NCBI RefSeq assembly: GCF_021249345.1
Contig: NZ_CP089588.1
Span: forward strand, 2,976,001-3,040,000
DNA: 64,000 bases
Direction of reading: 5' to 3'
Origin: Halobacterium wangiae
GTDB lineage: Archaea; Halobacteriota; Halobacteria; Halobacteriales; Halobacteriaceae
The notes under the pieces: model-generated
Database searches by the model: none
What the model saw: only the letters and a program-made list of their open reading frames with translations
Told to the model about the DNA's origin: nothing
Made by a program: the position numbers and the translations under genes
In this document: in pieces, positions 38,375 to 55,532 of the stretch
Layout: each line of letters begins with the position of its first letter
How positions within the stretch are numbered: the first letter of the stretch is position 1

Positions 38375-39678
38375 GCTTCGGCGACGAGTTCGCTGGCCTT
38401 CGCGTGGGACTGCTCGACGACGGTGGGCCGCGCCTCGAAGTCGATGACGACCTGTTCGTCGCCGTAGTCCACTTCGCGGACGTAGGCGTGGTCGTGGACC
38501 CAGGAGACGACGCTCATCGTGTCGTCGGTCATCGGGAGGACGAGTTTCTCACGCTCCCGCGGCGGGAGTTCGGCGTCGATGCGAGCACGGAGCGCGTCGA
38601 GGTTGGTGGCTTCGAGGCCACTCACCGCGACTGGGTTCGGCGCGAGCGCCGACAGCGCCTCCATCTTCTCCGCGAGTTCGTCGTCGTCGACCGTGTCCAC
38701 CTTGTTGAACACGGTGACGATGGGCGCCTCGTTGCGCTCGTAGAGGGTGTCGTGGCTCGTCGTCAGCTTCTCCCGTATCTCGTCGATGGACTCGCTGGCG
38801 TCCACGACGAGGAGCACGAGGTCGGCCTGGTAGACGGACTCCAGGGTCGACTTGAACGACTCGACGAGCCAGTGGGGCAGGTCGCTGATGAACCCGACGG
38901 TGTCCGTGAGGAGGACGTTCCGGCGGTCCATCTCGAGGCGCCGGGTCGTCGTACCGAGCGTCGTGAACAGTTTGTCCTGGGACTCCGCGGTGGTGTCCAG
39001 GTCCGGGTGGAGGTCCTCGTTCTCGTCGACGTCGAGGTCGTCGGCGAGCTGGCGGAGCAGCGTCGACTTCCCGGCGTTCGTGTAGCCCGCCAGCGCCACG
39101 AGGTCGAAGCCGGACTCACGGCGGGTCTCCCGGCGCTGTTCCTCTGTCTTCTCGATGTTCGCCAGTTCGTCGCGGATGCGGCTGATGCGGGCCTTGATGT
39201 CCTGCTCGCGGCTCTCGTCGTACTCGCCCAGCCCCATGAACCCCGGGCGCTCGTCGCGTTTCGCGAGGCTCGTCTTCGCCTCGGCGCGCGGGAGTTCGTA
39301 CCTGAGCTCCGCGAGTTCGACCTGCAACTGGGCCTTCCGCGTGTGCGCGCGCTGCCCGAAGATGTCCAGAATAAGGCGGAAGCGGTCGACGACCTCCGTG
39401 TCCTCGGGGAGGCGCTGTCCGAGGTTGTACGTCTGGTAGGGTCCGAGGCGGTTGTCGAAGACGACCCGGTCGGCGCCCGTCTCGTCGACGACCACCGCTA
39501 GCTCCTCGACTTTCCCCTCGCCGAACTGGAGGGCTGCGTCGGCCTTCCGTTCCTGGGTCACTTCCGCGGCCACGTCGTAGCCCGCGGCGCGCACCAGGTC
39601 CCTGATCTCGGCGGTGTCCGGCGTGCCGTCGTCAACGCGCTTGGCGACGACTGCAACGTTCGTATCGGTTCCTGTCAC
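38371..39678 (-). CDS. hflX: GTPase HflX
   Basis: The GTG at 39678 gives 435 residues. The N-terminal HflX domain (about 1-190, with the coiled segment LQVELAELRYELPRAE) precedes the G domain (about 200-370): G1 ALAGYTNAGKSTLL, G3 LTDTVGFISDLP, G4 VFNKVD, and VSGLEATNLD. HflX binds ribosomes and frees stalled complexes. The C-terminal 60 residues are acidic. Convergent with moaC. Confidence 0.94.
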   Translation of the reverse strand: MTGTDTNVAVVAKRVDDGTPDTAEIRDLVRAAGYDVAAEVTQERKADAALQFGEGKVEELAVVVDETGADRVVFDNRLGPYQTYNLGQRLPEDTEVVDRFRLILDIFGQRAHTRKAQLQVELAELRYELPRAEAKTSLAKRDERPGFMGLGEYDESREQDIKARISRIRDELANIEKTEEQRRETRRESGFDLVALAGYTNAGKSTLLRQLADDLDVDENEDLHPDLDTTAESQDKLFTTLGTTTRRLEMDRRNVLLTDTVGFISDLPHWLVESFKSTLESVYQADLVLLVVDASESIDEIREKLTTSHDTLYERNEAPIVTVFNKVDTVDDDELAEKMEALSALAPNPVAVSGLEATNLDALRARIDAELPPREREKLVLPMTDDTMSVVSWVHDHAYVREVDYGDEQVVIDFEARPTVVEQSHAKASELVAEA

Positions 39679-39700
39679 TCGCTGTGAGCTACGCCCCGCC

Positions 39701-39710
39701 GATACTTAAC
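39701..39710 (-). promoter_or_regulatory. TATA-like box for hflX
   Basis: GTTAAGTATC on the minus strand is about 23 nt upstream of the GTG at 39678 and is one half of a divergent promoter region with the FUN14 gene. Confidence 0.5.
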
Positions 39711-39756
39711 TCCGGGGCGAGGAACGTGTCGGAAACCGTTCGACTGAGCACAAGAG

Positions 39757-39762
39757 GTTTAC
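39757..39762 (+). promoter_or_regulatory. TATA-like box for FUN14 gene
   Basis: GTTTAC lies 23 nt upstream of the ATG at 39786. Confidence 0.5.
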
Positions 39763-39785
39763 CAGTTGGTTGCACACTACCCCCT

Positions 39786-40103
39786 ATGCCAGACGTAGAT
39801 CTCACCACGCTCGGCATCGAGTTCGGCGGTGGTGCGGGCATCGGTGCGATAATCGGGTTCGCCGCGAAGAAGATCGCGAAGCTCATCGCGGTCATCGTCG
39901 GCCTCCAGCTCGCCCTCTTCAAGTTCCTCGAGTCGCGGGGCATCCTCCAGGTCGACTGGAACCGCCTCACCGCGGGGATGGTGAAGGCGACGGAGATGGG
40001 GTCCAGCGGTGCGCCGCCGTCGTGGATGAACACCATCCTCTCGACGCTGTCGGTCAGCGCAGGGTTCACGGGTGGCTTCCTGCTGGGCTTCCGGCGCGGA
40101 TAA
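39786..40103 (+). CDS. FUN14-domain membrane protein
   Basis: The ATG at 39786 gives 105 residues. Two to three hydrophobic helices carry the FUN14 pattern: GGGAGIGAIIGFAAKKIAKL, then VGLQLALFKFLESRGILQVDW and LSVSAGFTGGFLLGFRRG. FUN14 proteins are small membrane proteins of unknown role in archaea. It is convergent with SBDS. Confidence 0.85.
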   Translation: MPDVDLTTLGIEFGGGAGIGAIIGFAAKKIAKLIAVIVGLQLALFKFLESRGILQVDWNRLTAGMVKATEMGSSGAPPSWMNTILSTLSVSAGFTGGFLLGFRRG

Positions 40104-40117
40104 CTGGCCGCGAGCGG

Positions 40118-40843
40118 TTATCGCGTGTCCAGTTCGTCTTTCTCCTTGACGATCTGCGTCTCGCCCTCCCCCTCCGAGACCTCGTTGACGAGTCCGTAGA
40201 AGTCGTTCTGCATCCCCGCGGGGAACGTCAGTACGCCGACCCACGAGCCGTCGGCCTGCCACTCCTCGCGCTCGAGTTCCGCGAACTCGCGGACGCGGGC
40301 CTGGCCACTCCCGGCGTAGTCGGCGGGCAACTGGACGGCCACGGTCACCTCCTCGAACCGGATGGGGATCACCGGCCGGAGCGCTTCCAGGGCCTCGTCT
40401 ACCTGCTGTTCGGCGGGCGTCATCGGGTCGACGGTGAACCCGGCCTCCTCCAGCGCGCTCTCGATGCGCTCCGGCGGGTGAGGCGCGTCGTCCATCTGCG
40501 GGTTGATGGCGTTGCGCGTGATGGTGTTTACGAGCTTGCGGCGCTTCTGCTCCTGCATCTCCTCGCGCTGCTCGGCGGTGATCTGGATCTCCCCGCGCTC
40601 GATGACCTCCGGGATGATCTCCAACGGGTCCGTCGTCCCGAACACCTCCTCCAGGTCCTCCTCGGCGGGTCGGTCCCCCCGGGAGGCGTTCTCGAAGACG
40701 TCGCGCGCGGCGATGACGTCCTCGAGTTCTCCCTCGAACTCGCCGCGTTTCATCTCCAGGGCGGCGTCCGGGTCCACGAGTACTTCGAATCGTTCCCCGT
40801 GCGTCTCGAGCCGAGCCGTCACGGCCTCGTCGAGTGAAATCAT
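40118..40843 (-). CDS. Ribosome maturation protein SBDS
   Basis: The 241-residue protein has the three SBDS domains: N-terminal FYSH (about 1-95; GERFEVLVDPDAALEMKRGE), the helical middle (QREEMQEQKRRKLVNTITRNAINP), and the C-terminal ferredoxin-like part. It functions in the late maturation of the large ribosomal subunit. It follows the proteasome alpha gene with the same orientation, 77 nt downstream. Confidence 0.94.
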   Translation of the reverse strand: MISLDEAVTARLETHGERFEVLVDPDAALEMKRGEFEGELEDVIAARDVFENASRGDRPAEEDLEEVFGTTDPLEIIPEVIERGEIQITAEQREEMQEQKRRKLVNTITRNAINPQMDDAPHPPERIESALEEAGFTVDPMTPAEQQVDEALEALRPVIPIRFEEVTVAVQLPADYAGSGQARVREFAELEREEWQADGSWVGVLTFPAGMQNDFYGLVNEVSEGEGETQIVKEKDELDTR

Positions 40844-40920
40844 ACGCGTCGTTTCGTCGGGTCACTAAAAAGACCTTCTCCCGTGAGCCGTGGTAACGTG
40901 GACCAATCGCGGTGTCCGTT

Positions 40921-41706
40921 CTACGTCTCGGACTCTTCGTCGCCGTCCGCCTCCTGCTCGTCGTCGGCCTCGCCGTCCTCGGGTAGCAGTTCGTGTTCGC
41001 CCAGGTACTCCTGGATCTCGTCGTCTGACAGTTCGATGAACGCGGCGGTCTCCGCGTCGATGGTGGCGACGCCGACGTCCTTCGGGGAGAGGGAGTCCCG
41101 GATCTCGCCGAGCGCGCGCAGCGCCAGTTCGACGCCCTCGTCGAGGGTGAGGGTGGGTTCGTACTCGTCCTCGAGGTAGCTCTGGACGTCCGAGCGGTTC
41201 TCGCCGATGGCGATGGCCTTCCACTCGTAGGGCGTCCCCGAGGGGTCCGTCTCGTAGAGGTGCGGTTCGCCGTCCGAGATTCCGCCGATGAGGAGCGCGA
41301 CGCCGAACGGACGCGCGCCACCGACCTGCGTGTACTGCTGGATGTGGTCGGTGATGTCCTTCGTGAGCGTCTCCACCGCGATGGGTTCGTCGTAGCGGAC
41401 GCGGTTGACCTGGGCGTCACGCCGTGCGAAGTCGATGAGCTGGCGGGCGTCGGCGACGTGACCCGCGCTCGCGATGCCGATGTGTTCGTCCGCCTTGTGG
41501 ATCTTCTCGACGGACGCCTCCTCCATCAGGTTCGAGCTGATGCGCTTGTCCACGAGGAGGACGACGCCGCCCTCGGTGCGGACGCCGATGCTCGGCGTGC
41601 CGCGCTTGACGGCCTCCCGAGCGTACTCGACCTGGTAGAGTCGGCCGTCCGGGGAGAAGATGGTGATACCGCGGTCGTACGCCTGTTGCTGGTTCTGGCC
41701 TTGCAT
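40921..41706 (-). CDS. psmA: 20S proteasome alpha subunit
   Basis: The 261-residue protein begins QGQNQQQAYDRGITIFSPDGRLYQVEYAREA, the alpha-type signature with the gate-forming N-terminal helix H0. The N-terminal Thr of beta subunits is absent. Family blocks VEKIHKADEHIGIASAGHVADAR and IGENRSDVQSYLE follow. It forms the outer rings of the proteasome. The C-terminus is a long acidic tail, usual in halophiles. It lies 3 nt downstream of rnp2. Confidence 0.96.
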   Translation of the reverse strand: MQGQNQQQAYDRGITIFSPDGRLYQVEYAREAVKRGTPSIGVRTEGGVVLLVDKRISSNLMEEASVEKIHKADEHIGIASAGHVADARQLIDFARRDAQVNRVRYDEPIAVETLTKDITDHIQQYTQVGGARPFGVALLIGGISDGEPHLYETDPSGTPYEWKAIAIGENRSDVQSYLEDEYEPTLTLDEGVELALRALGEIRDSLSPKDVGVATIDAETAAFIELSDDEIQEYLGEHELLPEDGEADDEQEADGDEESET

Positions 41707-41709
41707 AGT

Positions 41710-42189
41710 TCACCTGCAGTCGAATGTCGTCGCGCCGACGAACGACCCGTCGCCCTCCACGTCGACGCGCTCGCCGCGGACGACAGCGCGCCTGGAGTCG
41801 CCGTCGAACGCGACTGTCTCGTCCGATGAGGATTCTGCTCCGTCTCGTAAATACTTTTCCGCGGCCGCCCTGATCGTGCCCGAGACGCCCCGGACGGCGA
41901 CTCCGATCGGGTCGTCCCGGACCGAGTCCACGCACGCGACGGCGGCGCGCGCTCGCTCGACCTCCCCGCGTCGAACCCGGAGGAGCGCCTCGCCGGTCCC
42001 CGAGTCGAACGAGAATCGGACGACACGGAGGTCGGCGTCCGCGCTCCCCACGTCACCCACGAGGTTCTGGGCGGCGAACCAGACGCTGCGCTGGAAGTCC
42101 GCGCGGGAGACGTCGGCGTCCGGCCACGCCTCGAGTCCGACGGCGAGGTACCGCCAGCGCGGCCGGAGGTGTTTCGGGAGGTGCTTCAC
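41710..42189 (-). CDS. RNase P protein component 2 (Rpp14/Pop5)
   Basis: The 159-residue protein starts KHLPKHLRPRWRYLAVGLEAWP, typical of Pop5/Rpp14, and the alpha-beta core GDVGSADADLRVVRFSFDSGTGEALLRV follows. It is part of archaeal RNase P, which trims tRNA 5' ends. The gene follows the methyltransferase and Rpp30, on the same strand. Confidence 0.9.
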   Translation of the reverse strand: MKHLPKHLRPRWRYLAVGLEAWPDADVSRADFQRSVWFAAQNLVGDVGSADADLRVVRFSFDSGTGEALLRVRRGEVERARAAVACVDSVRDDPIGVAVRGVSGTIRAAAEKYLRDGAESSSDETVAFDGDSRRAVVRGERVDVEGDGSFVGATTFDCR

Positions 42190-42263
42190 GCCACTACGTT
42201 CGCCCGGCTCCCATTTGTCAGTTTGTGTTGGGCGACGGACCGGACGCCGGTCGCGACGCGCGC

Positions 42264-42917
42264 CTACACCCGTTCGGCGACCAGCACGCCGACCTGCTCG
42301 TGGACCATCTCGACGGCCGTCAGCGCGTAACCCGCGTCCGTGAACGCGTCCGCGAGCAGGCCAACCGTCGCCGGGTCGTCGACCTCCGGACTGAAGAACG
42401 GGTCCTCGGGGTCCGGCGCTCCGAAGAACATCACGTCACCGAGCACGATCTTCCGGGGACCGAGGGCGGCGATGGTGGCGATGGCGTCGCGCTTCTCTGC
42501 GTCGCTGAGGTGGTGCATCGCGAAGTTCGAGGTGACGATGTCGACGCGAGCATCGCGAGCGTCTGCTTGGAGCGGCTCCGCCGACCCAGCGTCGACCCCC
42601 TCCGGGAAGTTCGGGTCGCGGAACCGTCCCTCGCCGAACTCGACGTTCTCCAGGCCGCGCTCGGCGGCCTTCTGGCGGGCCTGGGCCAGCATCCCCTCGC
42701 TGATGTCGCGACCGACGACGCGCCCGGCGTCTTCGGCGAGGCCCAGTGCGATGGCGCCCGTCCCACACCCGAGGTCGAGGACGGTGTCGTCGCTGTCGGG
42801 CGCGGCGTGTTCGATGACGAGCGCGACGCACTTGTTGTACTCGGCAGTCTCGTTCTCGTCGTACTCCGCGGCGACGTCGTCGAAGCGAGCGGCGTGCTCC
42901 TCAAGCGTCTTCTTCAT
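42264..42917 (-). CDS. Class I SAM-dependent methyltransferase within RNase P operon
   Basis: The ATG at 42917 gives 217 residues and overlaps the Rpp30 gene end by 17 nt. Motif I is VLDLGCGTGAIALGLAEDA, with VVGRDISEGMLAQARQKA next and NFAMHHLS downstream. It is a Rossmann methyltransferase of unknown substrate. Its place between two RNase P subunits suggests RNA as a target, but that is only context. A longer start at 42944 is unlikely. Confidence 0.85.
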   Translation of the reverse strand: MKKTLEEHAARFDDVAAEYDENETAEYNKCVALVIEHAAPDSDDTVLDLGCGTGAIALGLAEDAGRVVGRDISEGMLAQARQKAAERGLENVEFGEGRFRDPNFPEGVDAGSAEPLQADARDARVDIVTSNFAMHHLSDAEKRDAIATIAALGPRKIVLGDVMFFGAPDPEDPFFSPEVDDPATVGLLADAFTDAGYALTAVEMVHEQVGVLVAERV

Positions 42918-43605
42918 GGTCGGCGACTTCGACGCCCGGCGCAATGAACTCCTCGGACAACAGCTCTCGGTTGCGCTCGGCGAGGACGCCCCACTCCGCG
43001 AGGCCCGCCCGGACCTGCTCGCGGTCGAACCCGATCTCCTTGCCGACGGCGAGCAGTTCCCGGGGGGCGCGCAGTTCGAGGTGGGAGGTCGGGTCTGCGC
43101 TCACGACGAACGGTGCGTCGTAGTAGAACACGAGTTCGCGGAGCTTCCGGAGGTCCCGCAGCGCCTGCACGCGCTCGCCACCGTTCGCGCGGAGCACGCC
43201 CGAGAGGTCGAACTCGATGCGGACGCCGTTCTCCTTCGCGGCCTTGACGACGACGTGGTTGACGTCGCCCCCGCCGCGCATCGGCCCCGCCAGCACGTCG
43301 ACCTTCGGGGACTCCGCGACGAACCGGTTCACTGGCGGCGTGCCGCCGCGCACGACCAACACGGTCGTCTGCTCGCGGAGGCTGGCGATGGAGCCGCTGG
43401 CGTGCGAGCGGTCCTCGGCGTCGATCTCCACGCCGTCGACGACGTCCACGCCGTACTCCTCGCGGACGGCGTCGAGGTCGGCGTCGGGGCGGGCGTCGCT
43501 CCGACTCCGCACCACGACGCCGTCGAAGCCGTCGCTGGCGGCGGTCAGCGCGAACCGCGCGACGGTGCTCTCGCCGTCTGGGTGGGCGTGGACGGCCTCG
43601 TACAC
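42901..43605 (-). CDS. RNase P protein component 3 (Rpp30)
   Basis: The GTG at 43605 gives 234 residues with a PHP-type TIM barrel: YEAVHAHPDGESTVARFALTA, the strand VDVLAGPMRGGGDVNHVVVKAA, and GVRIEFDLSGVLRANGGERV. Rpp30 pairs with Rpp14/Pop5 in RNase P. It heads the co-directional cluster Rpp30-methyltransferase-Rpp14-psmA-SBDS. Confidence 0.9.
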   Translation of the reverse strand: MYEAVHAHPDGESTVARFALTAASDGFDGVVVRSRSDARPDADLDAVREEYGVDVVDGVEIDAEDRSHASGSIASLREQTTVLVVRGGTPPVNRFVAESPKVDVLAGPMRGGGDVNHVVVKAAKENGVRIEFDLSGVLRANGGERVQALRDLRKLRELVFYYDAPFVVSADPTSHLELRAPRELLAVGKEIGFDREQVRAGLAEWGVLAERNRELLSEEFIAPGVEVADHEEDA

Positions 43606-43628
43606 GCACTCCCGTTGGACGCCCCCTC

Positions 43629-43636
43629 GTAAAAAC
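43629..43636 (-). promoter_or_regulatory. TATA-like box for the RNase P cluster
   Basis: GTTTTTAC (minus strand) is about 23 nt upstream of the GTG at 43605. Confidence 0.5.
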
Positions 43637-43719
43637 GGGTGCGGTCCGGGCGCCGGTTAGGGGCGGCCAAACGTGTTAGGCAGGCACCAACTATCTCGAT
43701 CGTACCCGTACTCGACAGT

Positions 43720-43905
43720 ATGACAGAGAGTACCGAGAACGCGACCTGGGACGACCCCGAGGCGTGCCCGTTCTGTGGCGAACGGCTCCGGAACGGCGGC
43801 GCGGGGTTCGTCGAACACGCGGACGCGAACGCCGACTGCAGGACGCGCTTCGACGAGTGGCGGGCGAACGTCGCGGGCGACGTAAACCCCGAGTGGTCCG
43901 GGTAG
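43720..43905 (+). CDS. Small zinc-finger protein
   Basis: The ATG at 43720 gives 61 residues with CPFCGERLRNGGAGFVEH and a second knuckle ending NADC, a C-x2-C...H...C pattern. This is a haloarchaeal small zinc protein (I recall DUF7501-type) of unknown role. It is convergent with the next gene. Confidence 0.7.
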   Translation: MTESTENATWDDPEACPFCGERLRNGGAGFVEHADANADCRTRFDEWRANVAGDVNPEWSG

Positions 43906-43921
43906 CAGGACAGTCGCGTCG

Positions 43922-44341
43922 TCAGGCCAGCGCGTCGCGGGCGTTCTCCACGGCGGCCTCCTTGTTCGCGGGGTAGGCCTCGACTTTCGCGCGCAGGGAG
44001 ATGCCGTTGCCGAGGCGCGCGTCCCCGAGGAACGCCTCCTGCTTGTCGAGGTGGACGAACAGCGAGCAGTTGTCGTCGACGCGCTGGTCGAGTTCCGCGC
44101 GGATGCGGTCGATGTCCGCGCCGTCGCGCAACTGGCCGAGGACGTGGCGCATCTCGTCGGCGCGCTCGACGCGTGCGGAGAGCACCACGATACGGTCGCC
44201 GTGGTGGCCCTCGGACTCGGCGCGTTCGAGTTCGACGTCCTCGGGGAGGAAGTGCCGGAGGGCGTCGGCGACGCGGTTCTCGTCCTCCGTGTCGTAGCAG
44301 AACGCCCGGAGGTCGACGTAGTGGAACGGAACCTCGCTCAT
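43922..44341 (-). CDS. RNA-binding protein (COG1325-like)
   Basis: The 139-residue protein starts VPFHYVDLRAFCYDTEDENRVADALRHFLP and is an alpha-beta RNA-binding family that I recall as COG1325, predicted to be exosome-related. Typical blocks are HHGDRIVVLSARVERADEM and LFVHLDKQEAFLGDARLGNG. Its target is unknown. It is followed by a small SH3-like gene and then the PolB2 operon, all on the minus strand. Confidence 0.8.
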   Translation of the reverse strand: MSEVPFHYVDLRAFCYDTEDENRVADALRHFLPEDVELERAESEGHHGDRIVVLSARVERADEMRHVLGQLRDGADIDRIRAELDQRVDDNCSLFVHLDKQEAFLGDARLGNGISLRAKVEAYPANKEAAVENARDALA

Positions 44342-44400
44342 TGGCCCTGGCTACTCACCGGACGCCTAAAAGGGACGCTACTGCGGGTCGCTGTACGGCG

Positions 44401-44619
44401 CTACTCCTCGCTGTCTTCTTCCGCGTCCTCGACGTCCTCGCCGTCGGCGGCTTCGAGGTTGTCCGAGGGGACGCCGGCCTCCTGGCCGTCCTCGAAGCTG
44501 ACGGTGTAGTTCGGCTCGCCGAACATCGTGTCGACGACCTGCGTGACCGTGCCGGTCTGGCCGTCGTACTCGCTGTGCTTGTCGTGCAGGACGACTTCGT
44601 CGTCTTCCTCGAAGCTCAT
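44401..44619 (-). CDS. Small SH3-like barrel protein
   Basis: The ATG at 44619 gives 72 residues, with MSFEEDDEVVLHDKHSEYDG and the strand-rich GTVTQVVDTMFGEPNYTVSFEDG followed by an acidic tail. The pattern fits a small SH3-like or KOW-type barrel, as seen in DUF1918-like or L21e-like proteins. Binding partner unknown. Confidence 0.6.
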   Translation of the reverse strand: MSFEEDDEVVLHDKHSEYDGQTGTVTQVVDTMFGEPNYTVSFEDGQEAGVPSDNLEAADGEDVEDAEEDSEE

Positions 44620-44667
44620 ACCACTGGCTTCCGTCGGCCCGCTCAAAAACACCCCGATTCCGCGCCC

Positions 44668-46770
44668 TCAGAACGACGACAGCGTGACGTCGCGCGTCCC
44701 CCGTAACTCGCGCTCCACACGCGAGCGGTCCCAACCGAACGGCGAGAGTACGGTCGCTGCGGCGCGCACGAGGCGGTCGGCGTAGTGGTCGGCGTCGTAG
44801 TCCGCGCAGTCCTCGAACGGGAGACGGACGCGTCGCCGGCCGTCCGCGTCGTCGGCCACGACCACGTACTCGACGCTCTGTCCCGGGTGGCGCTCGATGC
44901 CGTGTGCCTCGTACCGGCGGAGCGCCCCGACCGTGCGCGTCTCCCGGTCGTACTCGCCCGCTGGCTTCGACGCGCGCCGCGTCACCACGAGGTCCGCGGG
45001 AGCCACGTCGCCCGCGCGGAGCGTCGCGAGGTCCCGGGAGAGCGCGTCCACCACGACGCCCGGGTCGCCGCGGTCGAGGACGCGCAGCCACTCGCGCTGG
45101 CAGTCCGCGACGAACGGCGGCGTCGAGCGGCGCCGCGCCTCCACGCCCCGGAGTTTGTAGTCGTCTGCCCCAGCGACCTTCCCGAAGTACGACGTGAGCG
45201 CGCCACCGCCGCCGTCGCGTCGCGGTACGAAACAGACCCAGTCGTAGTGGCCGTCGCGTTCGAGGCGGACGCGCAGGTCGTCGGTAACGCGCTCGCAGAC
45301 GGCGTCCAGTGGCTCCGGGTCGTCGCCTGGCGTCACCCAGACGCTGTCGACGATGGCGTGGACGACGTGCCAGCCGGCGGCCTCCAGGGCCTCCTTCGCC
45401 GAGAAGAGGATGTCTCGCGCGTAGGCGTTGATGGCCTCGTGGCACTCGATGCGACCGAACTTGCTGTTCCGGTAGCCCTGGTAGCCGAAACACGACACCA
45501 GCACCCACTTGATGGCCGCCGACTCGGCCTCCAGGCGCTCGTCGTCGTCGCCGCCGCCCTCTGCCGCCAGTTCGCGCTTGATCTCGGCGCGGTCGTCGAG
45601 CAGCGGGCCGAGCACGTCCGCGAGGAAGCCACGCTCCGGACAGAGGTTGTAGTCGAGTTCCGGCACCACCGTCCGGTCGGGGTGGCACTCACAGAGCACG
45701 GTGTCGGGGCTGACGTTGTACTCGCGGATGATGGTCGGGTACAGCGACGCGAAGTCCACCGCGTACACGTCCTCGTGGCGGCCGACCTCCGGCGCGAGCG
45801 TCGTGCCGCCGCGGTCCGCCGCGTGGAGCGTGCGCGCGTCGGTGAACTGCTCGGGTTCCCACTTGTTCCACGGCACCAGCACGCCGCGGTCGAGGGCCTC
45901 CCGGGTCTGCATCGCGGTGAGGACGTTCCCGATGCTCGCCCACCCGGCCTCCTCGATGGGCTTCCACGAGCGCTCGACGAGGTAGCGCAGGCCAGCGAGG
46001 CCGGACTGTCCCCAGAGGAAGCTGTTGGACTCGTCCAGGACGGCCCGCCCCGGCACCGTGTACCGGGCGGGCGAGTGGCCGGTGCGCCCGTAGCTCTCGT
46101 ACGTGTTCGCGCCCGAGAGCTGGGTGACGCCGCCCGCCTCGCGGCCCCACTGCAGCGACACCCCGACCTTGCTCGCGCGGTCGGCGACGAGGTCGAGGAG
46201 ACCACCGTGGCTCACCACCAGCACGTCGGGGTTCTCGCGCTCGATGCGGGTCGCCAGCGTGCGCAGGACGGCTGGTTCGTCGCCCGCGACGCGCTCGCCG
46301 TCGATCCGGAGTTCGGTGAGGTCGCCGTCGGCGAGCGCGCGGGCTGTCGTCCGCACCGCGAGCGTGCGCAACTCGCGGGCGGGCGTCGGGTCCGTCCCCG
46401 TCTCCACGCAGTACCGGAATCCGGGCGAGAGGTCGACGTTGTACAGCCGGAACGTGCCGGGGGCGCGGCCGCGCTCATGGCGCTCGCGCACCTCCCGGGC
46501 GAGCGTCCGGACCTCCCGGACGCGGTCGACGTCCACCGCCAGCACCTCCGTCCGGTCGTCGGCGTGCAGGTCGAGGAAACGCTCGACCCAGCGGAGTTCG
46601 GCGACCTTCGGGTCGTCTGCGAGCGCGTCCGCGAGCGACCCGAGCACGCCGTCGGTGGCGTGGACGAACACGGTCGGCCGGTAGTCGGTGTCGCGTTCGG
46701 CGCGCGCCCCGTCCGCGGTGAGGTGCCACGCCGTCACGCCGTCCTCGTCCACGTCGAAGGCGTACGCCAT
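44668..46770 (-). CDS. Family B DNA polymerase, PolB2 type
   Basis: The 700-residue protein is shorter than replicative PolB (about 780-900 plus). Motif A DFASLYPTII is intact and motif B KWVLVSCFGYQGYRNSKFG is good, but motif C reads HAIVDSVWV: the catalytic Asp of YxDTDS-type motifs is kept while the first Asp is Ile. The N-terminal exonuclease motifs (DxE and the later Asp) are not visible. This fits archaeal PolB2, reported to act in damage tolerance. Its start overlaps the 80-residue gene (TGATG). Confidence 0.92.
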   Translation of the reverse strand: MAYAFDVDEDGVTAWHLTADGARAERDTDYRPTVFVHATDGVLGSLADALADDPKVAELRWVERFLDLHADDRTEVLAVDVDRVREVRTLAREVRERHERGRAPGTFRLYNVDLSPGFRYCVETGTDPTPARELRTLAVRTTARALADGDLTELRIDGERVAGDEPAVLRTLATRIERENPDVLVVSHGGLLDLVADRASKVGVSLQWGREAGGVTQLSGANTYESYGRTGHSPARYTVPGRAVLDESNSFLWGQSGLAGLRYLVERSWKPIEEAGWASIGNVLTAMQTREALDRGVLVPWNKWEPEQFTDARTLHAADRGGTTLAPEVGRHEDVYAVDFASLYPTIIREYNVSPDTVLCECHPDRTVVPELDYNLCPERGFLADVLGPLLDDRAEIKRELAAEGGGDDDERLEAESAAIKWVLVSCFGYQGYRNSKFGRIECHEAINAYARDILFSAKEALEAAGWHVVHAIVDSVWVTPGDDPEPLDAVCERVTDDLRVRLERDGHYDWVCFVPRRDGGGGALTSYFGKVAGADDYKLRGVEARRRSTPPFVADCQREWLRVLDRGDPGVVVDALSRDLATLRAGDVAPADLVVTRRASKPAGEYDRETRTVGALRRYEAHGIERHPGQSVEYVVVADDADGRRRVRLPFEDCADYDADHYADRLVRAAATVLSPFGWDRSRVERELRGTRDVTLSSF

Positions 46771-47012
46771 CAGTCGAGGCGCTCGCGGAGCTCCCGGAGC
46801 GCCGCCTCCTGGGCGACCAGCATCGAGAGGATGGCGGCGCGCTCCGGGTCGACGGCGTTCAGGTGGCCGGCGGCGTGGGCGTGGTTCCGGGCGCGCTCGA
46901 ACACGCGGTCGAAGTCCTGCTTGCGCTCGCGGCGGAGCGCCCGCCGGAACGACTGGCAGCGCTGCTCGTAGGCGTCGAGGTGGTCGCGGTACGTCGCGTT
47001 CGTGCGCCCCAT
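46770..47012 (-). CDS. Small helical protein of the PolB2 cassette
   Basis: The 80-residue protein is highly helical and charged: YRDHLDAYEQRCQSFRRALRRERKQDF, then a His/Ala-rich segment RARNHAHAAGHLNAVDPERA, and a final helix ILSMLVAQEAALRELRERLD. I do not recognise a named family. It overlaps both neighbours by one nt, so it is tightly coupled to the RecA-like gene upstream and PolB2 downstream and probably forms a complex with one of them. Confidence 0.75.
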   Translation of the reverse strand: MGRTNATYRDHLDAYEQRCQSFRRALRRERKQDFDRVFERARNHAHAAGHLNAVDPERAAILSMLVAQEAALRELRERLD

Positions 47013-47641
47013 CAGGCCACCACCTCCGGTTCCGGGGCCGCGACGCGCTCGGCCACCCGGCCCGCGATGTCGACCCAGTACGGGATGGTGGTCTGCCAGC
47101 CTCGTCGCGTCCAGTACGCCGTCGTCTCGACGTCCTCGCCCTCGAAGCGCGGCCCGAACTGCGTCTCCTCCACCGAGAGTTCGGCGTCCGCGTAGTCGGC
47201 GACCCGGTCGTCGTCCGTGGCGGTCACGAGCACCGGCACGTCCCGCGCGTCGGCGAGCGCCGAGAGCGTGGACAGCGACGCCGTCCGTAGTCGCTCGGCC
47301 TCGCAGGCGAGCAGGTCGTCGTCCCGGTAGCAGTCGTCTACCGCGGGCGCGACGACGAGACTGGTCGGCCGCCGGGCGTCGGCCACCAGCTGGCGGACGA
47401 GCGCGTGGTGCTGGTGGGCGGTGAACGCGCGCGCCACCTGCACCTGGTCGAGGACGCGGTGGGAGCGCGCGGCGTCGGCGAGCGCGTACGTCGAGGCGTG
47501 GTTCCGGGCGTCCACCCAGCGAGCGGGGCCGTCGCGGCGGTCCAGTGCGGCGACGACGAGCGCCGCGATTCCGCCGCGGTCGCCGCCCCGGAGCAGTGTC
47601 ACGCCCGAGTCGAGCGTCGGCAGTGGGTCTGCGCGTGGCAT
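47012..47641 (-). CDS. RecA/RadA-like protein lacking Walker A (PolB2 cassette)
   Basis: The ATG at 47641 gives 209 residues (MPRADPLPTLDSGVTLLRGG). The fold pattern is RecA-like: a strand where Walker A should lie reads LLRGGDRGGIAALVV, without the GK[T/S] signature, and the later strand SLVVAPAVDDCYRDDD fits a Walker B. The C-terminal half follows RadA paralogues (RVLDQVQVARAFTAHQHHALV, DVPVLVTATDDDRVADYADA). It resembles inactive RecA relatives such as bacterial ImuA in layout. It is the first gene of the PolB2 operon. Confidence 0.75.
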   Translation of the reverse strand: MPRADPLPTLDSGVTLLRGGDRGGIAALVVAALDRRDGPARWVDARNHASTYALADAARSHRVLDQVQVARAFTAHQHHALVRQLVADARRPTSLVVAPAVDDCYRDDDLLACEAERLRTASLSTLSALADARDVPVLVTATDDDRVADYADAELSVEETQFGPRFEGEDVETTAYWTRRGWQTTIPYWVDIAGRVAERVAAPEPEVVA

Positions 47642-47662
47642 ACTCGAATCGAGTGTCGACAC
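47642..47662. promoter_or_regulatory. Overlapping palindromes at the PolB2 cassette start
   Basis: ACTCGAATCGAGT (47642-47654, arms of 6 with a 1-nt spacer) and GTGTCGACAC (47653-47662, perfect) lie directly upstream of the ATG at 47641. Both could be a repressor operator controlling the RecA-like/PolB2 genes, and are also near the divergent RDD gene. No LexA-type consensus is known for haloarchaea, so this is a pattern only. Confidence 0.4.
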
Positions 47663-47757
47663 GGCGGATAACGCACCGCCAGCCCCGTAGTGAAAGTGAA
47701 AGTAGACGGCGCTATCCGGATGCAAACGTGTATGTGACGGCGCTCCGTGCGGCGCGT

Positions 47758-48216
47758 ATGACCGGTTCGGGCGACCTCGACCACTGCGGTGTGGGCATCC
47801 GCGGCGTGGCGGTGGCCATCGACTCGTTCGTCTGGTTCGTGCTCCTGTTCGTCGCCGTGTTTCCGGTCGCCGCCGTCACCGGCGACGTCTCGACGTCCGG
47901 CGGGACGACGAACGCAGACCTGAGCGGGACGCCCGCCGTCGTCGCACTGGCGCTGTGGCTCGCACTCGGCGTCGGTTACCACGCGCTGCTGGAGTGGCGG
48001 TACGGCAGGACGGTCGGGAAGTACCTCGTGAAGATCCGTGCGACGAGCGCGGACGGGTCGTCGCTCTCGCTCCGGGAGGCGGTGGTGCGCAACGCACTGC
48101 GCCTCGTCGACTGGCTCCCGCTGTGCTACGCTGTCGGCATCGCTGCCGTCCTCACGTCGGGCCGTGCGCAGCGACTCGGCGACCGCGTCGCCGACACTGT
48201 CGTCGTCCGAGACTGA
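47758..48216 (+). CDS. RDD-family membrane protein
   Basis: The ATG at 47758 gives 152 residues. It shows an RDD pattern: GIRGVAVAIDSFVWFVLLF, then ALWLALGVGYHALLEWRYG, TVGKYLVKIRATSADGSSL and the C-terminal RAQRLGDRVADTVVV, where the Arg-Asp pair appears. Three to four hydrophobic segments are present. RDD proteins are sodium/proton antiporters or transport-related; the precise role is unknown. It is divergent from the PolB2 operon. Confidence 0.82.
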   Translation: MTGSGDLDHCGVGIRGVAVAIDSFVWFVLLFVAVFPVAAVTGDVSTSGGTTNADLSGTPAVVALALWLALGVGYHALLEWRYGRTVGKYLVKIRATSADGSSLSLREAVVRNALRLVDWLPLCYAVGIAAVLTSGRAQRLGDRVADTVVVRD

Positions 48217-48219
48217 CCC

Positions 48220-49047
48220 TCACTCCGATCCGAACGTCTTCCCCTCGCGCTCCTCGGCGCCCATCCGCCGGAGCGCCGCCCGCGAGTTGCTCGCCTCGTA
48301 GCCGAAGAACACGTCCTTCGCGTACTCGTCGGCCACCTCCGCGGCGTGGACGAGGTTCTCCACGTCGACGTTGACCGCGTACAGTTCGATGCTGAGCGGC
48401 GCGTCGAGGGCGTCCTGGAACCCCGAGGCGATGGTCTCCAGCCAGTACGTCGTCCCGTAGTGGGTGTCGTACAGCGGGACGACGAACTCGTCGACGTACG
48501 CCGAGAGCGCGTCCAGGTCGAGGCCCGCGCGCTCGTAGAGGTGACCCGGGTACGGGTCGGGGTAGAGCGTGAGGTACGTCCGGCCGGGAATGCGGTCGGC
48601 GGCCTCGGCGACGAACTCCGTGATGACGCTCGCGCGCCAGTCGTACCAGTCGTCGACGTCGCTCTCCGAGAACGCAGTCTCACACCGCTCGCAGTGGCAG
48701 TACTCGGCGCGTGGGAAGCCGACGTCGTCGAGGCGCACGTCCTCGTTGAGTTCCGCGCACGTCTCGATCACGGTGAGCACGCCGGTCCGGTAGTCCTCGG
48801 CGAGCGGGCAGATGTACGCCCAGTCGAAGTACGGCTGCTCGCGGGTGGCCCGGTTGCCCTCGTCGTCGACGGGGACGAGGTCGGGTTCGGTGCCCGCGGT
48901 GGCGTTGTCCCCGAAGCAGGAGACCATGTTGACCGCGTTCTCCACGGGGTCGGTGTGCCGGCCGGTGACGTCCTTGACCTCGTAGAACGCGCGGTCGAAC
49001 TCCGGCCAGTCGAGTTCCTCGGCGTTTCGGGTGACGACGCCGTACAT
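48220..49047 (-). CDS. Conserved haloarchaeal protein of unknown function
   Basis: The 275-residue soluble protein has several Cys and Trp (CPLAEDYR, YCHCERCETAFSE) and a barrel-like alternation (LTLYPDPYPGHLYERAGLDL, VDEFVVPLYDTHYGTTYWLE, and LSIELYAVNVDVENL). It reminds me of glycoside-hydrolase-like TIM-barrel proteins but I cannot name the catalytic residues. A CxCxxC (YCHCERC) motif may bind metal. Convergent with the RDD gene. Confidence 0.6.
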   Translation of the reverse strand: MYGVVTRNAEELDWPEFDRAFYEVKDVTGRHTDPVENAVNMVSCFGDNATAGTEPDLVPVDDEGNRATREQPYFDWAYICPLAEDYRTGVLTVIETCAELNEDVRLDDVGFPRAEYCHCERCETAFSESDVDDWYDWRASVITEFVAEAADRIPGRTYLTLYPDPYPGHLYERAGLDLDALSAYVDEFVVPLYDTHYGTTYWLETIASGFQDALDAPLSIELYAVNVDVENLVHAAEVADEYAKDVFFGYEASNSRAALRRMGAEEREGKTFGSE

Positions 49048-49111
49048 GAGACAGGGTTGACTGCGCGACCGCGTAAGTCGTTCGGAAAGAGAACCGCGAG
49101 AGACGTGTCCG

Positions 49112-49228
49112 TCAGTCGATGCGGTCGACGCCGTCGTCGACAGGTTCGGCGTCGCCGCCGAGGAAGAGCTTCCAGACCAGCGCGATCACGACGAGGGCGA
49201 GCGCGAACTTCAGCAGTTTTCCTGCCAT
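49112..49228 (-). CDS. Small single-helix membrane protein
   Basis: A 38-residue ORF starts at ATG 49228 and ends at 49112. It has one hydrophobic helix (LLKFALALVVIALVWKLFLGG) and an acidic tail (DAEPVDDGVDRID). Similar mini membrane proteins occur in haloarchaea as conserved hypotheticals. Its function is unknown. Confidence 0.55.
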   Translation of the reverse strand: MAGKLLKFALALVVIALVWKLFLGGDAEPVDDGVDRID

Positions 49229-49268
49229 AGCTGCTAGTATCGTGCGAGCAACTAAACGCTTTGTGGGC

Positions 49269-49727
49269 TCAGTTCTGCAGGTAGTCGGTGACGTCCTCGC
49301 GGACGATCTCGCCGCAGTACTCACAGCGGAGCCCGTCGTCGAGCACGGCGAACGCCGCCTGGACGGGTTCGCCGGCGTTCGTGATGCAGTCGCGGTTCGG
49401 ACAGCGCAGGACGTCGGTGACCCGGTCGGGGCGTTCGACCTGGCGCTTCTCGACCACGTCGTAGTCCCGGATGATGTTGATGGTGGCCTCCGGTGCGATG
49501 AGCGACAGCACCTCCAGTTCGGAGTCGCTGAGCTCCCGGCCCTCGACTTTCACCACGTCCTTGCGCCCCATCCGGTCGGAGGGGACGTTCATGCCGAGGC
49601 TGACGGTCGCGTCGTCGTGGCCGTCGATGCCCAGCAGTGAGAGCACGTGGAGGGCCGCGCCGGCGGTGACGTGGTCGACGACGGTGCCGCTCTGGATCTT
49701 CGAGACGCGGAGTTTTGTGTCTGTCAT
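49269..49727 (-). CDS. pyrI: Aspartate carbamoyltransferase regulatory chain
   Basis: The 152-residue protein has the ATP/CTP-binding N-terminal domain ([22 protein letters not shown]) and the C-terminal zinc domain ([15 protein letters not shown]...[10 protein letters not shown] with four Cys). It binds the catalytic chain and gives allosteric control. It overlaps pyrB by 4 nt, so pyrI is upstream in the operon and pyrB lies at the 5' end of the transcript. Confidence 0.95.
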
Positions 49728-50626
49728 AGCAGGAGGTCGAGGAGGGCCATTCGGACCGGGACGCCGTTGTGTGCCTGTTCGAAGTACGTCGCGTTCGGGC
49801 TGTCGTCGACCTCGGCAGCAATCTCGTCGACGCGCGGGAGGGGGTGCATCACCGCCAGGTCGTCCTTCGCCGCCTCCAGCGTCTCGGCGGTGATGCGGTA
49901 CTCGCCGGCGACCGCCTCGTACTCGTCCTCGTCCGGGAACCGCTCGCGCTGGATGCGCGTCACGTAGAGCACGTCGAGGTTCGGCAACACGTCCTCGAGT
50001 TCCTCGTGTTCGCGGACCTGCGCGCCGGCCTCGTGGAGGTCGTAGCGGACACTCCGCGGGAGGCGGAGGCTCTCGGGGCTGACGAAGTGCTGGCGGACGT
50101 CGAAGTTCGTGAGCGCGTGCGCCAGCGAGTGGACCGTCCGGCCGTACTTCAGGTCGCCCATGATGCCGATCGAGAGGTCCTCGAGGCCCGCCTGCTCGCG
50201 GATGGTGTAGAGGTCCAGCAGCGTCTGGCTCGGGTGGTGACCGGCGCCGTCGCCGGCGTTCACGACCGGCACGTCGACGTAGTCGCTGGCGAGTTTCGCG
50301 GCGCCCTGCTTCGGGTGGCGCAGGACGAGGGCGTCGGCGTACCCCTCGACGACCCGGACGGTGTCCGCGAGCGACTCGCCCTTCTTCACCGACGACGACT
50401 CGACGGAGCCCATGTCGACGACGTCGCCGCCGAGGCGCTTGGCGGCCGCCTCGAAACTCATCTTCGTGCGCGTGCTCGGTTCGAAGAAGCAGAGCGCGAG
50501 CAACTTCCCCGCGTGCAGGTCGCTCGCACCCTCGAGGTCCGCGTCGAACTCCGCAGCCCTGTCGAGCACCGTCTCGACGTCGGCCCGGGAGAGCTGTTTG
50601 GCGGTGAGGAGGTGGTCGTGACGCAT
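49724..50626 (-). CDS. pyrB: Aspartate carbamoyltransferase catalytic chain
   Basis: The ATG at 50626 gives 300 residues. Carbamoyl-phosphate site [18 protein letters not shown], and the aspartate-binding [23 protein letters not shown] are visible. It joins carbamoyl phosphate and aspartate in pyrimidine synthesis. It is transcribed before pyrI in the same strand order and overlaps it by 4 nt. Confidence 0.97.
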
Positions 50627-50699
50627 CGGTGGAGAGCGCGACGCCCAGGAGCGTAAAACTCTCGGAGTGGTCTCGGAGTGGCCCGGAGGTTCAAGTGCG

Positions 50700-51334
50700 A
50701 TGACGGGACCACTGCGCGTCGTGTTGGCAGTCGCTGGCGGTAAAGGTGGCAGCGGCAAGACGACCACCGCACTCGGTGTGGCGTCCGCGCTCGCCCAGCG
50801 GCGGCGCCGGCCGCTGGTCGTGGACTGCGACCTCGACGCGACGAACCTCCACCTCCGCGCGGGCGTCCCGCGGGACCCGGGAATCGACGCCGGAACCGAC
50901 CCCGCCGCGGTCGCCCACGAGTCCGCGGTCGTCCCGGGAGTGGACGTCCTCCCCGCAGGGAGCGCCGACGGCGACGTGCTCGACGAGGTGCTCCCGCGAC
51001 TCCCCGACGACCGACCTGTCGTTCTCGACTGTCCGGCGGGCGCGAGCGAGGCCGCGGCGCGACCGCTCCGCGCTGCGAGCGGCTGTCTGGTCGTCGCCAC
51101 TCGCGGCCGCGAGAGCGTCGAGGACGCGGTCAAGACGCGGCGATGGCACGGGCAGTCGGCACGCCGGTTCGCGGTGTCGCGGTTTCTCGCGAACGGTCGG
51201 TCCCCAGGGGGCTCGCTCGCGCCCTCGACGCACAGCGGGTCGTCCCCGTCCCGACTGCAGGAGAGCCTCTCGGGAGCCCGGAGACGGACGCAGCGCACGC
51301 GAAACTGGCGGTCTGCGCGGAGCCAAATAGTTAA
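50700..51334 (+). pseudogene. MinD/ParA-like ATPase with one-base frameshift
   Basis: The ATG at 50700 opens [21 protein letters not shown], a deviant Walker A ATPase of the MinD/ParA type, with [18 protein letters not shown] next. At about 51137 the frame breaks: VEDAVKT is followed by R-R-W, whereas one frame over the sequence continues [20 protein letters not shown] to a stop at 51334. One missing G at a CGGCGG-like run explains this. The restored protein would have 211 residues. It is either a sequencing error or a real mutation. Confidence 0.8.
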
Positions 51335-51361
51335 CTTGCAGCGGTTCGTTGCGGACAACGA

Positions 51362-51988
51362 ATGGCCAGGCGGCTCTCGACGGGCATCGACGTGCTCGAC
51401 CGAGAACTGGGTGGCGGGGTGCCGGCAGGGACGGTGGTCGCGTACGAGGCGCCTCCCGCGAGCCAGGGGGAGCTACTGCTGTACGAGCTCACCCGGCCGC
51501 GACCGACGCTGTACCTCACCACCGACCGCACCGAGCAGGCCGTCCGCGACGCCTTCGAGGCGACGAACGCGCCGACGGGCGACCCCCAGTTCGGCTACAT
51601 CCCGGGCGCGGACTCCCTAGAGAACGCTCGCCGCGCGTTCCGCAGCGTCCCCGAGGAGTCCACCGTCGTCATCGACCCTGCGGACGCGCTGGAACGCGCC
51701 GACCGGGGCCGCTACGAGAACTTCCTCAACGAACTCGGCAACCACATGCGGAACGTCGGCGGCGTCGCCGTCCTCCACTGCCTCGACACCGACCACGAGG
51801 GGCCGCTGCGCGGCACCACCGAGCACATGGTGGACGTGGTGTTCCAGTTGCAGGTCGAGGAGAACAGCGGCGAGGTCGAGACGACGCTCACCGTGCCGAA
51901 GTTCCGCGGCGGGAGCGCGCTCGACGCACCGATAAAGCTGAACCTCCGCGAGCGCGTGCAGGTCGACACGAGTCGCGACATCGCGTAG
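51362..51988 (+). CDS. RAD55/KaiC-like RecA-superfamily protein
   Basis: The ATG at 51362 gives 208 residues with [19 protein letters not shown], the RecA/KaiC start, but the expected Walker A reads APPASQGE and lacks GK[T/S]. A Walker B-like strand [11 protein letters not shown] follows. Haloarchaeal proteins of this type occur as RAD55-like ATPase relatives of unknown role. It starts 27 nt after the MinD-like gene, and the two may be an operon. Confidence 0.8.
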
Positions 51989-52094
51989 CGAGCCGTCCTC
52001 CGCGTCGTCGGTCGCAACGTGGCGTCGCCACTCCCAGGTCGAACGGAGAAACCGCGTCCCAGACGGCGGTCCGTCCGGCGCGGGAGAAGGGAGT

Positions 52095-53018
52095 TTACTC
52101 CTCGTCGTCTTCGGCTTCGAGTTCTTCGACGATCTCGTCGGCGTCGACGTCGGCGTCCTCGAGGGCGTCCTCGATCTCACCGAGGTCCTCGCCGCCGCCC
52201 ATACCGCCCATGCCACCCATCATGCCGGGCATGCCCGCGGGCTGGCCGTCGATGATCTCCTGGACGATGACTCGGTCGAGGTCGAGCATCTCGATGAACT
52301 CGTTGAGGATCTGCTGCTTGCCCATCATCCACTGCTGGTTGAACTGGAGCTGCGGGGACTGCTCGATGTACAGCGTCTCCTTCTCGACGGTCTCCGTCTC
52401 CGACTCCTCGTCCTCGTCGTCGCCTTCGACTTCCTCCTCAACCTCGTCGGTCTCGATGTGCATGTCGAGGTCGACGTCGAAGTACATCTGCATCAGGCCC
52501 TTCGCCTTCTCGACGCGGTCCTCGGTCTCGCCGACGATCTCGTAGTCGTACTCGACGTCCTCACCGGCGAGCGGGTGATTGAAGTCGACGCGGGCGCGGC
52601 CGCCGATGACGGCCTCGACGTGGCCCTGCTGGCCGTCGATGTCGACGTGTGCACCGGGGTAGCGCTCGTCCTCGGGGATCTTCTGGGCGCTGACGGTGCG
52701 GACCTGGTCGTCGTCGTACTCGCCGAATGCCTGCTCGACGACGACGGTGCCCGAGTCACCGACCTCCTTGCCGACGATGTCGTCCTCGACGGCGTCGAAG
52801 ATGTGACCCTCGCCGATCACAATGGTGCGCGGGGAGAAGTCGCGCTCCTCGGTGTCGACGCCCTCCTCCTCGGCGGTCTCCTCGTCGGTCGTGTCCACGA
52901 GATCCTCGCTGTCGACCGTGAAGGCGGTGTAGGAGAGTTCGACGAAGTCGCCCTCCTGGAAGCCGCCCTGTTCAGCGTCGGATTCATCGGCCATGTCGGC
53001 CTCGGATTCGTCGCTCAT
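52095..53018 (-). CDS. FKBP-type peptidyl-prolyl isomerase (SlyD-like)
   Basis: The ATG at 53018 gives 307 residues; FKBP/SlyD landmarks are FVELSYTAFTVDSEDLVDTT, GEGHIFDAVEDDIVGKEVGD and a SlyD insert-in-flap region (YPGAHVDIDGQQGHVEAVIG, ARVDFNHPLAGEDVEYDY). The C-terminal part is Gly/Met-rich (PGMMGGMGGMGGGED) and strongly acidic, longer than typical SlyD. It catalyses prolyl isomerisation and probably chaperones nascent or metal-bound proteins. Confidence 0.92.
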   Translation of the reverse strand: MSDESEADMADESDAEQGGFQEGDFVELSYTAFTVDSEDLVDTTDEETAEEEGVDTEERDFSPRTIVIGEGHIFDAVEDDIVGKEVGDSGTVVVEQAFGEYDDDQVRTVSAQKIPEDERYPGAHVDIDGQQGHVEAVIGGRARVDFNHPLAGEDVEYDYEIVGETEDRVEKAKGLMQMYFDVDLDMHIETDEVEEEVEGDDEDEESETETVEKETLYIEQSPQLQFNQQWMMGKQQILNEFIEMLDLDRVIVQEIIDGQPAGMPGMMGGMGGMGGGEDLGEIEDALEDADVDADEIVEELEAEDDEE

Positions 53019-53043
53019 ACCCGTACGGACTCCCGTTCCACCC

Positions 53044-53048
53044 TTAAG
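53044..53048 (-). promoter_or_regulatory. TATA-like box for the FKBP gene
   Basis: The sequence TTAAG about 25 nt upstream of the ATG at 53018 (minus strand CTTAAG) fits an archaeal TATA element. Confidence 0.4.
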
Positions 53049-53200
53049 AATCACGTTTCGTGCCTGTCAGCGTCGGTCGGTACGAAACGTCGGCGGCGGC
53101 GTCGCGTTACCGACCACGGAGAGACGTCGAACGGGCCGATACGTGTCTCTAACGCCGCCGGACGTCGACTGGAGCCTGTCGAGCACTCGCAAGCGCCGGC

Positions 53201-53206
53201 CTTTTC
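53201..53206 (+). promoter_or_regulatory. TATA-like box for the CYTH gene
   Basis: CTTTTC lies 24 nt before the ATG at 53231. Confidence 0.4.
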
Positions 53207-53230
53207 TCGGGCGGCCGCGTGCGGTCGGCC

Positions 53231-53842
53231 ATGTACGAAGTGGAGGTGAAGGTGCCCGCCGACCTCGCTGGGGTGCGCGAGCGACTCGCGGACGCCGGGG
53301 CGGAGCGCGTCGCGACCGTCGCCCAGGCGGACACGTACTTCGACGCACCGCACCGGTCGTTCGCGGAGACGGACGAAGCGCTCCGCGTACGGCGAGTGGC
53401 GACGGCGGTGCCGGGGTTCGAGCGCGACCGGCCGCTGCCGGCGCTCGTCGACGACGTCCTCGACGGCGAGTACGGCGAGCGTGGGGAGTCCCGCGTGACC
53501 TACAAGGGGCCGCTCGTCGAGACCGAGTCGAAGACCCGCGAGGAGTTCGAGACGGTCGTCGACGACGGCGACACGATGCGCGAACTGCTCGGGCGACTCG
53601 GCTTCGAACCGGCAGCGACCGTCCGGAAACTCCGCGAGAAGCACATTCTGGGCGAGTTCGCCGTCCTCCTGGACGCGGTCGAGAACGTCGGCGAGTACGT
53701 CGAGGTGGAGACCGAAGTCCCCGACGAGGACGCCGTCGAAGCGGCCCGGGAGGCCGCCTACGAACTCCTCGAGTCGCTCGGCCTCGACCCCGACGAGCAG
53801 GTCCGCACGTCGTACCTCGGCCTGCAGCTCGAAGATGCGTAG
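53231..53842 (+). CDS. CYTH-domain protein (class IV adenylate cyclase-like)
   Basis: The ATG at 53231 gives 203 residues. The CYTH signature YEVEVKVPADLAG is complete (ExExK pattern), and basic/acidic tunnel residues appear in RVTYKGPLVETESKTREEFE and VRKLREKHILGEFAVLLDAVENVGEYVEVE. CYTH proteins hydrolyse or cyclise triphosphates (for example CyaB or thiamine triphosphatase). The specific substrate is unknown. Confidence 0.9.
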   Translation: MYEVEVKVPADLAGVRERLADAGAERVATVAQADTYFDAPHRSFAETDEALRVRRVATAVPGFERDRPLPALVDDVLDGEYGERGESRVTYKGPLVETESKTREEFETVVDDGDTMRELLGRLGFEPAATVRKLREKHILGEFAVLLDAVENVGEYVEVETEVPDEDAVEAAREAAYELLESLGLDPDEQVRTSYLGLQLEDA

Positions 53843-53876
53843 CGCGCATATTGTCGACGCTCTCTCTTTTCGCAAG

Positions 53877-53881
53877 TTATA
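53877..53881 (+). promoter_or_regulatory. TATA-like box for methionine adenosyltransferase
   Basis: TTATA lies 27 nt upstream of the ATG at 53909. Confidence 0.45.
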
Positions 53882-53908
53882 GAAGCCGAGCCCGGGTAGA
53901 GTGGCGCA

Positions 53909-55129: not shown

Positions 55130-55130
55130 A

Positions 55131-55197
55131 GCGCACTTTTTGCGCTGCGGGAGGTCGCTACGCGACCCCCGCTCGGCAAAAACTTGCGGAAAAAGCA
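55131..55197. repeat. Intergenic palindromic element (T-run, GC hairpin, A-run)
   Basis: The pattern CACTTTTTGC, hairpin, then GCAAAAACTT and GAAAAAGCAC forms an imperfect outer inverted arrangement. It recalls palindromic intergenic elements found dispersed in some haloarchaeal genomes. Only this one copy occurs in the window. Confidence 0.45.
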
Positions 55198-55503: not shown

Positions 55504-55510
55504 GTTTAAT
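55504..55510 (+). promoter_or_regulatory. TATA-like box for thiI
   Basis: GTTTAAT is 23-24 nt upstream of the ATG at 55533 and supports that start over an in-frame ATG at 55509 that overlaps the box. Confidence 0.5.
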
Positions 55511-55532
55511 GCCGGGACGGCTTGCATCGACC

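Follow-up and report, generated by a model that had tools for sequence, protein, structure and literature searches.

PolB2 operons have been described in archaea on two occasions that bear on the present locus. Makarova et al. 2014 (PMC4104785) reported that polB2 is linked with arCOG07300 and with inactivated radA genes, including the severely decayed radA-like arCOG07763. More recently, Timinskas et al. 2025 (PMC11791011) have named these parts PPB2 and iRadA and have modelled a PolB2-iRadA-PPB2(3) complex, the "PolB2 mutasome". That study also describes an MGRT signature of PPB2, finds that only a small minority of PolB2 proteins have PCNA motifs, with weak ones possibly missed, and records that Dpo2 of Sulfolobus islandicus, whose motif C reads IID, is active and required for targeted mutagenesis. 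In a published comparison, the PolB2 mutasome is likened to E. coli Pol V (UmuD'2C-RecA), which also joins a polymerase to a small accessory oligomer and a RecA-family subunit and which also has an accessory N-terminal arm near the active site. Pol V differs, however, in having a Y-family polymerase, an unrelated small subunit and an active RecA. Damage-response promoters of Sulfolobus are bound by Orc1-2, which recognizes ANTTTC in its own and in other such promoters.

In Halobacterium NRC-1, the sequence TTTCACTTTCA lies upstream of the TATA box in the UV-B-induced genes radA1, top6B, vng17 and vng280, and it is present in radA promoters of other halophiles too (Boubriak et al. 2008, PMC2556686). 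The link between TTTCACTTTCA and UV induction rests on NRC-1 transcript data from a study that did not identify a binding protein and whose text does not contain the word "polymerase". Here we describe a three-gene cassette in a window of 64,000 nucleotides, the whole stretch of Halobacterium wangiae DNA that was analysed (NZ_CP089588.1, 2,976,001 to 3,040,000; positions below are those of the window). The cassette, which is predicted to encode an error-prone polymerase complex for DNA damage tolerance, is a further example of the published PolB2 operon, and we interpret it with good confidence as a chromosomal operon of Halobacterium that encodes the PolB2 mutasome and works by the mechanism proposed below. 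The novelty seems to lie in its promoter, which shares a short element with that of UV-induced radA.

The PolB2 operon of Halobacterium wangiae

The three genes are adjacent and co-directional on the minus strand in the order iRadA (47012..47641, read as ORF 47641..47012, 209 aa), PPB2 (arCOG07300, a small helical partner; 46770..47012, 80 aa) and PolB2 (a family B polymerase; 44668..46770, 700 aa). Each starts with ATG, and both gene junctions read ...TGATG..., with the A of the stop codon doubling as the A of the next ATG. The genes and overlaps set out in the original prediction are confirmed. The operon sits on the 3.1 Mb main contig of a 3.11 Mb, one-contig genome, and its nearest named relative is found in Halobacterium sp. 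TGN-42-S1 (PolB2 82% identity). Values of dN/dS of about 0.16-0.40 for the three genes, window versus two congeners, show that the operon is under purifying selection. Together with a PolB2 match to NCBIfam NF004418 at 876 bits and the conserved co-occurrence described below, these values establish that the genes are not chance ORFs.

Like the published PolB2 operon, the window copy has the three families in iRadA-PPB2-PolB2 order, the MGRT arm, an IVD motif C and a decayed exonuclease. Unlike many euryarchaeal PolB2 operons, it has no adjacent orc1/cdc6 and carries a radA-type UV-B element; a CDC6 query over window positions 38001-56000 returned no orc1/cdc6 gene. Two minus-strand neighbours accompany the operon in Halobacterium relatives alone: at 48220-49047 an unassigned protein of 275 aa with a weak GHL10 match, and at 44401-44652 a protein of 83 aa that weakly matches DUF1918.

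ImuA-ImuB-DnaE2 is likewise a damage cassette of three genes, one of them for a RecA-like partner, and the original prediction drew this parallel. The likeness holds at the level of the cassette and its RecA-like member but does not extend to the polymerases, as DnaE2 is a C-family enzyme accompanied by an inactive Y-family ImuB, and neither the polymerase nor the small subunit is shared; Pol V is the closer published parallel. Direct homology with ImuA-ImuB-DnaE2 was rejected, since the polymerase here is of family B and there is no Y-family gene among the three. The two partners had also been called uncharacterised, although both have already been named and modelled computationally. A complex for lesion bypass, judged plausible in the same prediction, is supported by the published operon model (PMC11791011) and by Sulfolobus Dpo2 genetics, and is an idea already in print.

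PolB2 retains part of a polymerase active site

Several features predicted for the polymerase gene hold on closer comparison with the PolB3 of the same genome. PolB2 is short (700 aa against a PolB3 open frame of 904 aa), its motif C reads AIVDSVW where PolB3 has GDTDS, so that IVD replaces DxD with Ile for the first Asp, and its exonuclease site is gone, the ExoI DIE of PolB3 having become DLS with the ExoII Asn and the ExoIII YxxxD lost. The predicted structure (single chain, pLDDT 85.9) aligns with archaeal family B polymerase structures at Z up to about 27 over about 640 residues.

The altered motif C raises the alternative that the Halobacterium PolB2 does not function as a polymerase and that the complex is instead a regulatory or structural factor, perhaps at stalled forks or in the control of origins, an idea that dates from the time when PolB2 was regarded as inactive. 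The first DxD Asp is missing well beyond the window protein, as 107 of 111 haloarchaeal loci fit [GA][IV]VDS[VLI]W, and Makarova et al. 2014 (PMC4104785) preferred inactivation and drew attention to the arORC2 gene nearby. Against this, the S. islandicus Dpo2, which belongs to the same polymerase group and has suffered the same loss, is an active enzyme on which targeted mutagenesis depends (PMC11791011), and the PolB2 family alignment shows no variation in the motif A Asp, in SLYP or in the second Asp of motif C, which is not expected of a dead enzyme. We consequently regard a nonworking PolB2 as improbable and favour a working polymerase, for which lesion bypass and mutagenesis would be expected by analogy with Sulfolobus Dpo2 and from the literature. 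No haloarchaeal lesion-bypass experiment was found in the open-access literature, only an unpublished note that polB2 of Haloferax can be deleted.

The window PolB2 ends in DVTLSSF and the PolB3 of this genome in QTGLGSFT. A C-terminal Lxx[FY] tail is present at 105 of the 111 PolB2 loci, usually with the canonical Gln missing, and looks like a degenerate PIP box.

iRadA and PPB2

iRadA is a Rad51/RadA core without ATPase motifs. Where RadA has GEFGAGKS it reads RGGDRGGI, with no GKS/T and hence no Walker A or P-loop, and APAVDD stands at the expected Walker B position with the Walker B Asp missing. In family searches (Pfam/NCBIfam) its Rad51/RadB signal is weak (E about 7e-4); the single-chain AlphaFold2 model (pLDDT 89.5), however, matches Rad51/Dmc1/RadA structures at Z 17-18 over 175-180 residues. 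The description of this gene as RecA-like and lacking the P-loop was thus accurate, as was that of the 80-residue middle gene, which proves to be PPB2. The latter has no family match with E <0.08 in the Pfam/NCBIfam search. It begins MGRTNATYR and so carries the MGRT arm, of which M1, G2 and R3 are invariant and T4 nearly so in an alignment of 24 haloarchaeal PPB2 proteins. A natural PPB2-PolB2 fusion is found in Haloarcula rara (L050:5627-9106), where MGRTNPTYR continues into PolB2 in a single frame.

A model of operon function can be assembled from these features and the literature. A promoter spanning about -62 to -26 relative to iRadA would give rise to one mRNA, and the two TGATG overlaps may help, through translational coupling, to balance the three products. 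PolB2, which lacks proofreading and keeps of its active site only the motif A Asp and the second Asp of motif C, would extend distorted primer ends past lesions. From published work, iRadA, which is without the usual ATP-binding residues, is predicted to dock on PolB2 in place of a Rad51 filament neighbour, and a PPB2 trimer to pass its MGRT arm between iRadA and PolB2, beside the DNA. We further suppose that the PIP-like tail of PolB2 may recruit PCNA.

The window operon promoter contains a UV-B element

Upstream of iRadA lies ACTTTCACTTTCAC (47690..47703, minus strand; -62 to -49 from the iRadA ATG), which contains TTTCACTTTCA. It is followed by a TATA-like GTTATC, read by eye (47667..47672, minus strand; -31 to -26), whose position would fit a leaderless transcript. 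Nine exact genomic copies of the element exist versus 0.08 expected under a first-order model of the window, and an A/T-rich stretch occurs 8-19 bases downstream in eight of the nine (the window copy and seven of the other eight). The 14-mer was tested by shuffles and Markov expectation; reversing the repeat yields almost the same repeat at a shifted position, which makes a reversed control unfair here. Among the copies are those in the promoters of radA (L134/L146; Rad51 family) and of topoisomerase VI B (L124/L150), the latter a GHKL ATPase by profile that is named from sequence. Because ACTTTCACTTTCAC is common to radA and top6B, its presence suggests that the window operon belongs to the UV-B response.

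As ACTTTCACTTTCAC lies between divergent genes, it might instead belong to the plus-strand RDD gene. This ownership appears less likely because the element recurs before iRadA elsewhere at the same distance and in the same orientation. The Sulfolobus motif ANTTTC was also considered as the window element. Two ACTTTC copies fit, but they lie within the distinct haloarchaeal TTTCACTTTCA repeat, which is the better candidate in both position and sequence. The promoter provides a cheap and concrete entry to the question of which protein recognises TTTCACTTTCA when haloarchaea respond to UV.

Exact TTTCACTTTCA copies with a downstream A/T-rich box are also seen at L144/L126, L145/L123, L147/L140 and L149/L129. 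The copy at L126 is 135 nt before a gene for a PLP-dependent enzyme, and the other extra copies are upstream of short or unidentified ORFs. In Halobacterium (L128) and Natrinema (L161), a small protein with a similar final stretch (FLERRGGKTFLVTVE and VSLEHRGGRTYLLIEE) is encoded about 55-60 nt after TTTCACTTTCA. The Halobacterium version has no Pfam match, and this small protein is a possible unrecognised member of the UV-B regulon. At L127, a 14-mer copy with one mismatch, ACCTTCACTTTCAC, occurs 96 nt before a gene that is RPA-like by eye and has no Pfam match.

Distribution of the operon and its mobile relatives

Among 292 Halobacteria genomes, PolB2 was found in 189, PPB2 in 179 and iRadA in 177. 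All three families are present in 171 genomes, that is, in 171 of the 189 that bear PolB2, and none in 98, counts that ignore relatedness and that, like the promoter-class counts below, are inflated by kinship. The three genes are therefore not rare companions, in keeping with the co-occurrence on which the prediction of a joint system had been made to depend. Their order was iRadA-PPB2-PolB2 at 30 of the first 31 loci inspected, and order and orientation are kept at nearly all loci inspected, some with an insertion of a few kb. Such insertions separate PPB2 from PolB2 at L097, L104, L109, L114, L116, L118 and L122 and in genomes G012, G060, G066 and G197, and several of these copies are plasmid-borne. 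The 98 genomes without any of the three genes indicate that the function of the PolB2 system is dispensable.

The same genome has a second full iRadA-PPB2-PolB2 operon (C1:1785338-1788341; L013:6747-12899 with the sequence downstream), with identities to the window operon of 48% for PolB2, 47% for PPB2 and 43% for iRadA. Its neighbours are genes for SRAP and for an AAA+ protein of Orc1/Cdc6 type, and in the haloarchaeal PolB2 tree it falls on the main branch opposite to that of the window operon. PolB2 copies on plasmids of H. salinarum NRC-34001 are not of the window type, being only about 48% identical to window PolB2.

It could be argued that the operon is a mobile cassette, or one derived from a plasmid, that mainly benefits a plasmid or virus, through plasmid repair or replication, and not host damage tolerance. 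PolB2 relatives are indeed present in 106 plasmid records and, at about 30% identity, in four records of Leptospira phages, the distribution is patchy, and the paralogous operon stands beside SRAP and Orc1/Cdc6-type genes. The window operon itself, however, is located on the main contig, clusters on the PolB2 tree with the copies of other Halobacterium genomes, is subject to purifying selection and has a promoter element in common with radA and top6B. We judge this explanation very unlikely, and prefer to view the window copy as a host operon of Halobacterium.

Two promoter classes across Haloarchaea

The promoter comparison was extended to 78 non-redundant iRadA upstream regions. Start codons were assigned by rule, and the promoter analysis as a whole is comparative. 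The motif TTTCACTT[TC]C is present in 17 of the 78, always in forward orientation at -85 to -40, a location at which it never arose in 300 shuffles. In the same location, 42 of the 78 have a GGAA-N4-6-GGAA direct repeat (shuffle maximum 2), usually in the form CGGAA-N4/5-CGGAAAC. At least seven switches between promoter classes occur along the PolB2 tree. The second operon of H. wangiae has neither a TTTCACTTTCA-type element nor a CGGAA repeat in its promoter.

At loci with long flanks, orc1/cdc6 lies within about 6.5 kb upstream at none of 14 TTTCACTTTCA-class loci versus 23 of 33 CGGAA-class loci. A Fisher test of promoter class against adjacent orc1/cdc6 gives 8e-6 with kinship ignored, but a tree-aware test finds only about four independent pairs, 3.4 of them in the expected direction (p about 0.25). 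With so few independent pairs on the tree, the association is only a trend. Of the 43 adjacent orc1/cdc6 genes, 20 are also preceded by the CGGAA repeat; for random windows of equal length the figure is 139 of 2150.

These patterns lead us to propose, tentatively and with slightly more doubt than conviction, that haloarchaeal PolB2 operons are damage-induced through either of two interchangeable operators at the same position. One would be the radA1/top6B UV-B element, used without an adjacent orc1/cdc6; the other would be CGGAA-N4/5-CGGAA, which is also found before the adjacent orc1/cdc6 and may serve an autoregulated Orc1/Cdc6-type regulator. By analogy, this suggests a circuit comparable to that of Sulfolobus Orc1-2 with a different site. 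In the open-access literature we found no report of the two-class pattern, which is weak evidence for novelty, and no test of Orc1/Cdc6 as a damage regulator in Euryarchaea. Since Halobacterium and Haloferax are genetically tractable, both the reader of TTTCACTTTCA and the putative Orc1/Cdc6 regulator are directly accessible to experiment. In the Natrinema genome of L046, the CGGAA repeat precedes the orc1/cdc6 of the locus and radA retains TTTCACTTTCA.
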